Below are positions 14,872-19,128 of a DNA stretch of 24,598 bases, piece by piece. The position numbers were made by a program, and so were the translations under genes. The stretch's first letter is position 1; each line of letters starts with the position of its first letter. The notes under the pieces are model-generated. The model was not told the origin of the DNA and ran no database searches. It was given only the letters and a program-made list of their open reading frames with translations. The DNA is taken from positions 1 through 24,598 of the IMG/VR virus record IMGVR_UViG_3300009529_000046; one strand, 5' to 3'. Source of the stretch: a virus.

Positions 14872-16876
14872 TTGCTAAAGTGTTAACTGATGGCTTACGT
14901 TGTTGTCCACCCCTTAGACCTTGGCCAAGTTGACCAGCGGCAGTTGAGCTTTCAAACTCATTAATCTGCCCAAGAAGGTCTTGAGCTTGCCCTTCCTCAG
15001 TATTTTGCCCGGGAATTTGTGGCACTGGTTGTCTTTGAAACCAGTCTCTTGCTTTCCAAGTAGTCTCAAAATCATTTTTAACCTTATCTCCATTAACTTT
15101 GTCCCCAGTAACCTGAGAAATTTGTACAGCTTGTTGAAATTTATCTTGAAACATCACTTTATCAAGAGCCGTACCCTCTTTTTCTTCTGGAGATACAATT
15201 ACATACCAATTTAATCTAAGTTTTTTGAGTTTTTCAACGTTTATAGTCCTAAATCTGACCTGTTGACCGCGTTTTGCTCTCTTCTCTTCCTCGTCAAACA
15301 ACATCTGCTCTTCCTCTACCTCCAAATCCCGATCCATTAAACGAATTTGTTTACTACCATTCATTCCATTATCAAGCTCCGCTTGAGATAATGTGAAAGA
15401 TCTGAAGACTTTTTCAATCTCTTTGGTAATAGGATTGACTCTTTTACCCTTAGATTCCAAATAATTCTCCATTATAGTATCAATTCTTGCCATTTCCATG
15501 TCTCTTTTCATCCTCATAACAGCTAAAACAGCATGCCCAAGTTGTTTTGTCGCATTTCTTTGCAGTGTCAATACCTCTGTCGCGGACTTTCTGTCACCTG
15601 ACGAGACTCCTTGGGTAACATCTGAAGCACCAATAAACTCTTCAGACATCCTATTTATCATTTTCATCATTTGGAACTCAGAAGAACTTGGACCCTGATG
15701 ATCAATCATTGATTGAAAATCTTTCTGTCTAAGTCCTTGTGTAACAGCTCCTGGGGCCCAAACATCCTTAGAGAATATCTTTTTAGTAGGTACAGCTAGT
15801 GGTGGTTCTAATGATTGCTGGAATTTTCTTACCATCAGCCTTATAGACTCATCAGTTAGGGCTTGTATTGCCTTTGCTGACGCTGTCAGTGGTTTACCGG
15901 CCCAAAAATTTACTGATAGTGATTTTAGTGCAAAAAGTCTAATCGGATATCCCTCATACTTATAAGGTAGTGGTGTACCCGGTTTAAACATCGTTACTCC
16001 ATTTATAATAACCTGGTACTCATTATCTGGATAACTCCAATAAGTAATAACCTCCACCTCATTGTCTTGTAATTTTCCAAATCTATATGTGTAAGCCCTT
16101 CCAATATATTCATCAGCTACCCCAGAATTATTCTGCGCAGGCATTCCTTTTTTTACAAATTGGAAATTTTCGTTATTTTTCCACAATACTTGTGCTTGTC
16201 TGTATGACATTCTGTCATACTTAAACATAAATGGTTGTTGTTTATACTTATGTGTAGGAATAGTTATGTCTCCCACAAAAATTTTAAGCCCAGAAATAAG
16301 TTCCTTCTCGGCTCTTTGTATTTTTTTACCATTATAAAATCTTGTAACGAATTTTTCCTCTATACCAACAACCCTCTGACAGAGAAGTTCGTAAATTGCT
16401 TGTTGCCATAGGTCCTCATCGTTCTCAATCTCATTAGTTCTCTTAACAATGTCACCCATGTCTTGCCCTAATTGTACAAGCTCTGTGTCATCTTCATTAA
16501 AAGTACGTACTTGTGCTTGGAAATTCAATGCTAATAACTCATTTGCTACCGCTTCGATCTTCTTTTCTGTGGTTCCAGTTACTATTCTAGTTTCAGAATC
16601 ATTCTTTTTTGGTTTAAGATATGAATTTCTTGCGTTCTCATTATCTATATAATCCTGAATGAAGTTTGAATTATCATAAAAATGAGATGTAGAGTTTCTT
16701 GTATCCCGAGCATCTGTAAGTCTCTCTAATAAGAACTTATAAGACGTAAGATCTTCTGGGGACATTATAATTGAAGCAGCCTCTTCTGCTTTTTTGTCGA
16801 ACTTGTAGCCTTTGGCCAGCGTGGTGTTTTTAGACTGTACAGCCTTCTGTGGGGCTGTGATGGTCTCTTGTGGCAT
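14864..16876 (-). CDS. Portal protein
   Basis: At 670 residues, this falls in the range of P22-type portals. Features include a helical N-terminus, the wing/stem-like strands around residues 195-300 (IFVGDITIPTHKYKQ, VEVITYWSYPDNEYQVIINGV), and the conserved helical stretch EEFIGASDVTQGVSSG-DRKSATEVLTLQRNA (413-442), characteristic of portals. A C-terminal Gln/Gly-rich tail ends it. Portal forms the dodecameric ring at one capsid vertex, docks the terminase and conducts DNA. It is downstream of TerL, separated by a roughly 640-nt gap carrying a structured RNA, which is unusual because these two genes are normally adjacent. No Shine-Dalgarno precedes the ATG. Confidence 0.88.
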   Translation of the reverse strand: MPQETITAPQKAVQSKNTTLAKGYKFDKKAEEAASIIMSPEDLTSYKFLLERLTDARDTRNSTSHFYDNSNFIQDYIDNENARNSYLKPKKNDSETRIVTGTTEKKIEAVANELLALNFQAQVRTFNEDDTELVQLGQDMGDIVKRTNEIENDEDLWQQAIYELLCQRVVGIEEKFVTRFYNGKKIQRAEKELISGLKIFVGDITIPTHKYKQQPFMFKYDRMSYRQAQVLWKNNENFQFVKKGMPAQNNSGVADEYIGRAYTYRFGKLQDNEVEVITYWSYPDNEYQVIINGVTMFKPGTPLPYKYEGYPIRLFALKSLSVNFWAGKPLTASAKAIQALTDESIRLMVRKFQQSLEPPLAVPTKKIFSKDVWAPGAVTQGLRQKDFQSMIDHQGPSSSEFQMMKMINRMSEEFIGASDVTQGVSSGDRKSATEVLTLQRNATKQLGHAVLAVMRMKRDMEMARIDTIMENYLESKGKRVNPITKEIEKVFRSFTLSQAELDNGMNGSKQIRLMDRDLEVEEEQMLFDEEEKRAKRGQQVRFRTINVEKLKKLRLNWYVIVSPEEKEGTALDKVMFQDKFQQAVQISQVTGDKVNGDKVKNDFETTWKARDWFQRQPVPQIPGQNTEEGQAQDLLGQINEFESSTAAGQLGQGLRGGQQRKPSVNTLANA

Positions 16877-16879
16877 ATT

Positions 16880-17490
16880 TTTATCTTATTGTCACCATGT
16901 GCAGAGCACATGGTGGGATTAATATAACTATACGTAATAATGGCAGGACATTATCAGCTATTAGCTGATACTGAAAGGAGTCCGTAGCTTTAGATCCTGC
17001 CATCGCCATATTGGTCGAGTAATATGACCTGTTGTGCTACCATTATTGCGTATATACCCATTCCACCAATCCCCAAGCTACTTTTTACCGTGAGAGGGCG
17101 AACCCTACTTGAGTTGGTGGCTTTTACTAAGGCAAGTATCGCCTGTTAAAACAATACCGTTACTCCTTCTACACGTGGTAGACGAGCTATATTACGAGGG
17201 CTGGAAGTGTAGTTCAAGCACCTTTTTGCCCAGCCCTGCCGTCTTCGTGCGTCTCACGAACGCTTGCATTGGGTATAAGGCTCGAGACGGAAATTTTCCC
17301 TATACCCGATGGTTAAGAACTATTACCACCTGTAAGCACCTCACAAGGAGACGCTTTCTTTACGGATACATCTTACGATGTGCTTACAGAAGGTAATGCT
17401 GTACCAAGAAGACATATCCAGGTGGCGTAGACTAGCCGTGGCCGGTGTACGTCTTGAACATGCCCTCATGCTTGTCGTGGTACAGAATAA
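16880..17490 (-). ncRNA. Large, highly structured noncoding RNA between terL and portal
   Basis: No credible ORF covers this segment, and it pairs with itself throughout. Perfect helices (plus coordinates): 17478-17485/17399-17406 (8 bp); 17380-17389/17330-17339 (10 bp) stacked on 17392-17397/17322-17327 (6 bp); 17301-17307/17271-17277; 17255-17260/17244-17249; 17230-17237/17197-17204 (8 bp); 17178-17182/17168-17172; 17114-17120/17063-17069; 17021-17026/17007-17012; 16995-17001/16942-16948; 16964-16970/16952-16958; 16906-16915/16893-16902 (10 bp). A 12-of-13 long-range helix joins 17040-17052 and 16931-16943. A UUCG-capped hairpin lies at 17095-17106. A 5-bp pseudoknot is possible (17036-17040 with 16984-16988). 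G-U pairs at 17448-17455/17409-17416 and in the 17457-17472 hairpin favour the minus strand, although one mismatch in the long-range helix would be G-U on the plus strand. Size and phage location recall ROOL or GOLLD RNAs. Ends are approximate. Confidence 0.8.
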
Positions 17491-17494
17491 CTAT

Positions 17495-17503
17495 ATTATA
17501 TCA
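17495..17503 (-). promoter_or_regulatory. Extended -10 promoter for the structured RNA
   Basis: The minus strand reads TGATATAAT, a perfect extended -10 (TGnTATAAT), 17-26 nt downstream of the terL stop codon. Predicted transcription would start near 17488, just before the first 8-bp helix (17478-17485). No convincing -35 is seen, which extended -10 promoters do not need. Confidence 0.65.
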
Positions 17504-17520
17504 TATTTTATTTATTGTGT

Positions 17521-19128
17521 TTAATTGTCATGGACATTGTACGTTTTCACCTCGGTAGATGCTATGAGCACCTGCTCTCTCATTTGCCAACCAATAGCTA
17601 GCGCCATCAAAAGATCAGAATGAGCTGTCATGTTATCGTTTTTATACACTATTGTAGACAAATCGTCTCTATTATAGCTACGCATCTCGTGGTGAATGGT
17701 CTCATCTGGTATATTTATATGATCATCATTTACCGCGCGGACTAGGGCATACATCATTGCTGGTTTATTCCCCTTAGAAGTATACCAACCCAACTTCTCA
17801 GTCTCCTTGTCCTCTTCATATTCCTCGTTTACTTGCTTGTAAATCAATTCAGGAGGGTAAATATCCTTCAAATTAGTAATAGTAGAAAAACCATGGTTGT
17901 TTCTTTCGACCGCTATAAGAGGGTTATTATAAAGTTTGGCCATTGAGACAGCTTCGTGTGAGAGAATATCCGGTTTAATCCTATTATTCTGATATGTCGC
18001 GACTATTTTTGGCCTAAGAGGCGTAAAATCAATTATAACCATTGCTGAATGGTGTTTTCCATCGCCTCCTGCCGGGTCTACTGATAAGACATAATCATGA
18101 CCTGCTTGTTTATTTTCATATATCGTCCATGAACCTATCTGATCTATAGGTTTTTTTATATACTTGTGTAGTTTATTCACCTTTTCAACATCAAATAATT
18201 TGGACCCAGAGGAAACAAACGCTTCTTCTGGTGTTAAGGGCATCTCTTGATGGAGTAAATTCCAATCTTTTTCCATCTGAATCCACTGTAAGTAATAATA
18301 AGACAATTGTTGTGGGTTTAGATTGTGTTTTTTTTGTACCTCCTCAAATCTTTCGTGGTCATCCATTTGAGTGGTGGGGATAATTGTTGTGACCTTTGCT
18401 ATTTCGTCTACGTCCCATAACCACGAATAAAAGAAAGCTTTGTACTCTGTAGGTAACTTTTTATCATTCCCTTGTCTTTTTTGTCTGTTCCACGCGTCCC
18501 AGAACATATTATAAAACCTTCCTGAGTCTCCTTCTGCTGTGGATTCTACAGTAATCTCTCCATCGAGAGGTGCTGCTTTGAAAGAACCTGAGATAATTTC
18601 AGTTGCCTTGGAAGGATATTTTGCACATATTTTACCGAACTCAGATACATGAATATGTTGGAAAGTACCGGATCTTCCTGATATTCTTACTGATATCTCT
18701 GAGTATTTACCGTTTGAGAAGCCTAATTTGAGCTTGTTAGCCCTTTCAGTGTCGACTTCGAACATTTCCTTCAGATAAGGCTCGTATAGCTCCCAGGCGA
18801 GCATTACTTTGTCATCGAATATCTCAATGGCTGCTTCTTTTTCGTGGGCTATTAGGAGTGCTTTGAAGTTGGGGTTCCAAAGGACGTTATCTAACATGTT
18901 GATAACTGAGAAAGTTGTGAAGCCTAATTGTCTTGATTTTAAGATTATGTTTCTATTAGACTTGTTTTTGAGGAAGTCGCCTTGGGCGGGGTTGGGGATA
19001 AATGTTAGGAGGTTGGCATTTTTGTCTGTTATTTGATATAGGTTGGAGATGCGCCAGACTTTGGAAAGAAGTTTGTCTTTTTCCTTTTGGGACATTTTGT
19101 CTGGGTTCCATGTGCGGGGTTTTGACAT
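17521..19128 (-). CDS. terL: Terminase large subunit (ATPase/nuclease)
   Basis: This 535-residue protein is the packaging motor that pumps DNA through the portal and cuts it. The ATPase domain shows the Walker-A-like KSRQLGFTT (64-72), Walker B in QHIHVSEFGK (157-166, Glu163 catalytic) and the coupling motif ESTAEG (195-200). The RNase-H-like nuclease domain shows Asp351 in SVDPAGGDGKHHS, Glu408 in AVERNNHG and Asp504 in AHSDLLMALAIG, the three metal-binding acids. Length is normal and no key residue is missing. It follows TerS after a 176-nt gap with hairpins. The structured RNA lies directly after its stop codon. No Shine-Dalgarno precedes the ATG. Confidence 0.95.
   Translation of the reverse strand: MSKPRTWNPDKMSQKEKDKLLSKVWRISNLYQITDKNANLLTFIPNPAQGDFLKNKSNRNIILKSRQLGFTTFSVINMLDNVLWNPNFKALLIAHEKEAAIEIFDDKVMLAWELYEPYLKEMFEVDTERANKLKLGFSNGKYSEISVRISGRSGTFQHIHVSEFGKICAKYPSKATEIISGSFKAAPLDGEITVESTAEGDSGRFYNMFWDAWNRQKRQGNDKKLPTEYKAFFYSWLWDVDEIAKVTTIIPTTQMDDHERFEEVQKKHNLNPQQLSYYYLQWIQMEKDWNLLHQEMPLTPEEAFVSSGSKLFDVEKVNKLHKYIKKPIDQIGSWTIYENKQAGHDYVLSVDPAGGDGKHHSAMVIIDFTPLRPKIVATYQNNRIKPDILSHEAVSMAKLYNNPLIAVERNNHGFSTITNLKDIYPPELIYKQVNEEYEEDKETEKLGWYTSKGNKPAMMYALVRAVNDDHINIPDETIHHEMRSYNRDDLSTIVYKNDNMTAHSDLLMALAIGWQMREQVLIASTEVKTYNVHDN

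Follow-up and report, generated by a model that had tools for sequence, protein, structure and literature searches.

The locus considered here raises the question of what a densely folded stretch without an apparent protein product is doing between the terminase and portal genes of a phage. The stretch occupies positions 16880-17503 on the minus strand of the window, i.e. of the entire 24,598-base IMG/VR virus record, where it forms part of a packaging and structural module composed of a small terminase (PF16677 match), terL, the folded stretch and a portal gene. An earlier note had taken it for a ROOL/GOLLD-like RNA or a new class, possibly with a role in packaging, and had missed what we regard as its key feature, namely a 58-nucleotide (nt) element at 17132-17189 of the minus strand, which covariance models identify as a stand-alone copy of the RNA belonging to the bacterial RlfA-RlfB (DUF3800/PDC-M04) system.

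When phages were searched sensitively at the DNA level, two Enterovibrio phages showed weak similarity to these same 60 bases, in both cases within long unannotated gaps. A search pattern in which the apparent unpaired core was fixed (18 fixed bases) and the stems were left free retrieved 30 IMG/VR viral contigs and 56 bacterial contigs, where about 1-2 viral and about 7-8 bacterial contigs would be expected by chance, as estimated from the number of fixed bases and the sizes of the collections. Two complementary stems, which are not required by the pattern, are found in nearly all matches; L045, L067 and L082, which are without the stems, were discarded, as were the chance matches L008 and L016 (14.8 bits). 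In an alignment of 26 phage copies (A1), 94.7% of the pair cells are standard and both partners have changed in 11 of 17 pairs; in stem I this is true of four pairs. The covariation score of A1 is 0.463 as compared with 0.190 after shuffling and at most 0.136 for slid structures, and the score of A2 is 0.332 versus 0.174 after shuffling. The outer helix, which was fixed by the first pattern, was tested with a pattern that did not constrain it, and likewise displays compensatory changes (GCUG/CAGU in L105, UCUC/GAGA in L103, ACUC/GAGU in L107 and GCUC/GAGC in L104).

The element has the layout UAGCUC-G-(stem I)-CACGU-(stem I')-AAGGAGU-AAC-(stem II)-UGC, and the window copy possesses the two-hairpin fold, the UAGCUC...CAYGU...AGGAGUNAC core and the covarying stems by which membership of the family is judged. 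It scores 69.4 bits with model R1 and 58.5 bits (E 2.7e-15) with model R2, which was trained solely on operon-linked copies (38 bacterial loci and phage P1), the next match in the window reaching 12.9 bits. Furthermore, it is the sole match in the window to the element pattern with at most 3 mismatches, and its pairs have probabilities of 0.42-0.84 in the full-length ensemble. There is no -10 just upstream of it and no terminator at the element, both of which are usual in bacterial copies and not required for the family: a -10-like site is found about 300 nt upstream, and stem II, which resembles an intrinsic terminator in most bacterial copies, is here followed by the tail UGCCUUAG without a U-run. 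The convergent rlfB and rlfA genes are likewise absent from the window, which thus holds an orphan RNA and not the full three-part system. Rfam 15 contains no such RNA family. The Rfam DUF3800-I to -XI RNAs are similar in being small structured RNAs beside DUF3800 genes, some of which phages carry as orphans near the element, but none of their models matches this RNA, neither in the window nor in the operon-linked copies, and it is a further class beside them. Among the open-licence literature we found no paper on this RNA, its orphan copies, PDC-M04 or the function of RlfAB.

In bacteria, a gene for a protein of about 166 amino acids is convergent with the RNA in 42 of the 56 loci, and in 32 of them the operon also encodes a 237-residue DUF3800 protein (PF12686); the viral loci fetched by the time of that count had neither protein. 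The operon proteins match PADLOC PDC-M04A/B (E 5e-98 and 4e-76) and are the RlfA and RlfB proteins of phage P1, in which the same RNA is found as an unannotated small RNA with a terminator, convergent with rlfB and accompanied by the DUF3800 gene rlfA (L109 1998-3236), whereas the window has the RNA only. The annotation of rlfA and rlfB in P1 mentions only a possible link to lytic replication. The bacterial RNA typically begins about 5 nt after a -10-like box (23/41), a T-rich tail comes after stem II in 28 of 41 copies, and the RNA is single-copy in the 23 bacterial genomes searched; judged by these sequence features it is a free-standing small RNA gene with its own terminator.

The predicted structure of RlfA (predicted local distance difference test, pLDDT, 88) has an RNase HII-like fold, with a best structural match at E 6e-6, and the residues D10, E11, D133 and D180 are invariant. 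DUF3800 proteins were earlier predicted to adopt an RNase H fold and to be associated with non-coding RNAs (PMC10910872). A fold search with the RlfB model (pLDDT 95) gave no significant match, the top ones being colicin D and HigB/RelE RNases at E 0.14-0.25, which we do not use as evidence. In 8 of 16 loci scanned for neighbours, the neighbours being picked by closeness and size and hence not a random sample, strong restriction-modification or Argonaute genes are present beside the operon, several having hsdS before and hsdR after it, and type III Mod/Res and prokaryotic Argonaute (pAgo) genes were also found; in 4 more loci the matches, to type III Res or a defence ATPase, are weak, and 4 have none. 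The operon is often situated within type I or type III restriction loci; in L056, L068 and L088, all bacterial, rlfA-rlfB together with its RNA separates hsdS from hsdR in a type I locus. The location inside restriction loci recalls the anticodon nuclease PrrC, which sits inside EcoprrI, and by analogy RlfAB may be a second-line guard that is released when restriction is inhibited.

The phage copies are distinguished from the operon-linked ones in several respects. DUF3800 is absent from 28 records, comprising the window and 27 other phage records carrying the RNA, and phi3T has none either, while the positive control P1 has one. At position 7 of the element, 15 of 27 phage orphans, including the window, have G, as opposed to none of 41 operon-linked copies, all of which have A (Fisher p 4e-8, uncorrected for relatedness). 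A -10 box is found in 3 of 27 phage copies as compared with the 23 of 41 mentioned above, and a T-rich tail in 8 of 27 as compared with 28 of 41, related sequences in all of these counts not being independent. In addition, phage copies are often found in tRNA arrays, and 4 of 27 are at most 10 nt away from a tRNA gene, as opposed to none of 41 bacterial copies within 100 nt, and phage tRNAs are a known means of counter-defence (PMC10264068, PMC11555353). Unrelated phages carry the element at widely varying positions, at a distance from packaging genes, and nearly all phage records have one full copy. Second, diverged copies are found in the same phage locus in L030 (1103-1139) and L022 (7624-7681), and in tandem in an SPbeta-like B. 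velezensis record (L112 2001-2100). In phi3T (L110 2001-2188) and L009 (3512-3712) the orphan RNA is followed at a distance of 65-75 nt by an orphan DUF3800-VIII (RF03075) and DUF3800-IX (RF02968) RNA, respectively, and L009 likewise has no DUF3800 gene. A tmRNA (L034 432-783) and a tmRNA-like fragment (L018 5405-5510) are also found near the orphan RNA in phage records.

The phage probably uses its stand-alone copy of the RNA of a suspected anti-phage gene pair as a decoy, and we lean towards the notion that the phage copy is a mimic which titrates or inhibits RlfAB-type immunity. In the host, RlfA, RlfB and the RNA of about 60 nt would assemble into a ribonucleoprotein by which infection is sensed or punished, in many cases beside a restriction system, and in which the host RNA would be a cofactor or an RNA antitoxin. 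The phage copy, transcribed from a local promoter or by read-through from terL, would then bind RlfA and/or RlfB as a decoy or antitoxin mimic and leave the complex blocked, titrated or misassembled. Phage RNAs of this kind have precedents. The pseudo-ToxI of phage PhiTE is a non-coding RNA with which the phage imitates the RNA component of a bacterial immunity system made of protein and RNA (PMC3475682); the present case differs in being a single 58-nt two-hairpin copy tied to DUF3800/RlfB with a putative effect. The Racr anti-CRISPRs are solitary copies of immune-system RNAs in viruses without the proteins (PMC10651486), but they mimic CRISPR repeats and there is no CRISPR link here. As in these cases the RNA occurs without the proteins, the immune role of RlfAB itself being predicted.

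Several points should however be held against this notion. PDC-M04 is a candidate and unproven defence system in PADLOC, P1 carries the complete operon, which is hence not purely a host system, and P1 can dispense with rlfA and rlfB (PMC10695390). Many of the viral records are fragments, so the absence of DUF3800 is a strong observation only for the large ones, e.g. those of 185, 174, 166, 146, 142 and 128 kb, and since the core bases of the family were fixed by the search pattern their invariance is not evidence. The RNA could also have been co-opted for another purpose. The finding links a hitherto unexplained non-coding RNA of a phage to one particular candidate immune system, and it hints that RNA mimicry, which is known for ToxIN and CRISPR, reaches beyond these two. 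The family itself spans many bacterial phyla and their phages and is lacking in Rfam, and it offers DUF3800, whose RNA partners have so far been without known function, a testable setting in which an RNase HII-like protein is combined with a partner protein and an RNA, often in restriction loci; P1 and phi3T bring the idea within reach of tests in laboratory E. coli and B. subtilis.

Among the alternatives, a processing site, stabiliser or attenuator acting on a phage transcript, with no RlfAB target, would agree with the abutment of several copies to tRNA genes, the position of the window copy in a possible leader of the portal operon and the terminator-like stem II. We nonetheless consider such a cis-acting role unlikely, since in bacteria the RNA stands by itself as a small RNA linked to rlfAB, the positions in phages vary widely and most phage copies are without a U-run. 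Slightly less probable still is a functionless relic of a whole rlfA-rlfB-RNA module of which only the RNA end was kept: P1 does carry the full module and P1-like plasmids lose or replace rlfAB (PMC6906374), but a relic would decay, and both stems are kept via compensatory changes in many unrelated phages, nearly all records have one full copy and position 7 consistently departs from the operon-linked copies. That the phage RNA instead acts in trans to activate or redirect the RlfAB of the host, or of an rlfAB-bearing prophage such as P1, to the benefit of the phage, e.g. against competitors, is in keeping with an RNA body unchanged in kind and with P1 being a phage that uses the system. This would however require an RNA-limited host complex, and the systematic change at position 7 is better explained by a non-productive ligand, which makes a trans-acting partner improbable. 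The HK022 put antitermination RNA (PMC9378689) resembles the element as a two-hairpin phage RNA of similar size, but no sequence match was found in HK022, R1 and R2 have no match in its genome (L036) and the element is linked to rlfAB. A self-cleaving ribozyme processing tRNA 3' ends, considered on account of the tRNA adjacency, was likewise rejected, there being no Rfam ribozyme match and the rlfAB linkage explaining the conservation better.

The proposal of the earlier note that the stretch is a multimeric RNA like ROOL or GOLLD, or a packaging RNA like that of phi29, draws on its size, its helix density and its location between terL and portal, and we consider it very improbable. ROOL and GOLLD are indeed large, densely folded phage RNAs, but neither ROOL (RF03087) nor GOLLD (RF02032) matches at gathering or at E <= 5 over 16800-17560. 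With regard to packaging, searches of viral contigs with TerL and portal peptides yielded no phage relatives, and a capsid protein search yielded 37, none of which has the RNA element. In the 31 relatives with a readable portal and upstream open reading frame (ORF), the distance from that ORF to the portal gene is usually 3-57 nt and exceeds 100 nt in three only, and it amounts to 3, 32, 54 and 169 nt where the upstream ORF is confirmed as TerL. The packaging RNA was rejected on these gaps: an RNA conserved beside the motor, as in phi29, is not seen in the relatives, and elsewhere the element is found far from packaging genes and, in bacteria, beside a candidate defence operon. As the capsid-found relatives lack the stretch, it is a lineage-specific insert at the terL-portal junction, and the best explanation is that the 624 nt are accessory cargo of this phage lineage.

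In other respects the earlier note described the stretch well. Its placement between terL and portal agrees with the PHROG terminase matches and with the relatives of the window phage, the 670-residue ORF having no family match on its own sequence and sharing 22-43% identity with its counterpart in the capsid-found relatives, which fits a portal. The absence of a coding frame is borne out by a longest open stretch of 51 codons and 9-14 stops per frame on the minus strand, the sole listed ORF (17109-17396, plus strand) being antisense with a TTG start. The minus strand has a folding energy of -214 kcal/mol (z -6.7, 20 shuffles), and for a slightly shorter stretch z is -6.05 with 0 of 100 shuffles equally stable. 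The choice of the minus strand is favoured as well, although by energy only moderately, since z for the plus strand is -4.3 for the slightly shorter stretch and -3.2 in a separate run; G-U wobbles, e.g. in stem I, are consistent with the minus strand as the RNA. A UUCG hairpin and the complementarity of GUAGC and GCUAC (17036-17040 with 16984-16988) are present in the sequence as described. A scan of the whole window with Rfam 15 gave zero matches at gathering, and at E <= 5 merely chance-level microRNA-type matches over 16800-17560. It is thus supported that 16880-17503 is a real, densely folded non-coding RNA region on the minus strand outside every Rfam class, and it takes the form of a series of separate hairpin modules (Table 1). 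The claim of an own promoter fares less well: the extended -10 TGATATAAT is present, with a -35-like hexamer 17 nt upstream, but such sites are not commoner than expected by chance (2 found versus 2.5 expected), and the long-range helix overlaps this -10, so only part of that helix could be transcribed from it. An intrinsic terminator was looked for and not found.

Table 1. Features of the folded stretch and the genes flanking it (window positions).
Feature	Position	Strand	Basis or remark
terL (terminase large subunit)	17521-19128	-	PHROG 2, 26724 matches
Extended -10-like TGATATAAT	17495-17503	-	Consensus match only; possible -35 TAAACA at 17518-17523
Long-hairpin module	17318-17408	-	z -3.9
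Module with 2 or 3 hairpins, including 9-10 bp stems	17195-17318	-	z -2.4
RlfAB (DUF3800/PDC-M04)-associated RNA element, orphan phage copy, 58 nt, two hairpins	17132-17189	-	Covariance models R1, R2
Outer helix, 5' arm GCUC	17184-17187	-	Pairs with GAGU 17162-17165
Element position 7, G in the window	17183	-	Comparison with operon-linked copies
Stem I, 5' arm UCUAC	17178-17182	-	Pairs with 17168-17172; loop CACGU 17173-17177
Stem I, 3' arm GUAGA	17168-17172	-	Covariation in 26 phage copies
Stem II, 10 pairs, 4-nt loop 17145-17148	17135-17158	-	Covaries
Module with UUCG hairpin within CCACCAA/UUGGUGG stem	17040-17131	-	z -1.1
Multi-branched module closed by AAUAAUGGUAG/CUGCCAUUAUU, with possible pseudoknot	16918-17060	-	z -4.8
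Perfect 10-bp hairpin immediately upstream of portal start	16893-16915	-	No U-run
Portal gene, 670 amino acids	14864-16876	-	Assigned by position and relatives

The remaining approximately 560 nt are structured as well, and these modules may be mimics of further RNA-based systems. Searches with them found no relatives, be it for the long-hairpin module, for the loop pattern of the module at 17195-17318 (zero matches in 2.9 million viral contigs) or for a pattern from the UUCG module (absent in viral contigs), and the hairpin in front of the portal gene is not a terminator, as it has no U-run. Extending the notion of a mimic to the whole 624-nt stretch, one could imagine a counter-defence RNA array in which each module would be a mimic that neutralises an RNA-dependent bacterial immune system of its own, and similar arrays with interchangeable modules in phi3T, L009 and the Enterovibrio phages 1.084.O, 1.101.O and 1.121.O; we regard this as speculative and rather doubtful.

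In the three Enterovibrio phages, unannotated non-coding stretches of about 1-1.4 kb (1.084.O, L002 1472-2537; 1.121.O, L003 1880-3257; 1.101.O, L151 690-1950) adjoin tRNAs and end in intrinsic terminators. They have several conserved blocks in common, one of 218 nt at 91% identity, the order and spacing of which differ, and the impression is of arrays built from exchangeable RNA modules. One identical 37-nt block is able to form an H-type pseudoknot, but a likeness to type III antitoxins was rejected, since its further matches in viral contigs (L152-L155) do not preserve the pairs and look like chance; a plasmid search with the block gave zero matches. The terL-portal junction may for its part be a landing site for structured RNAs. 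In two relatives of the window phage (L124 3479-3647 and L125 3349-3706), strongly folded non-coding elements without the RlfAB RNA are found just upstream of the portal gene, with closing stems of about 25 bp and z of -5.1 and -2.5, respectively.
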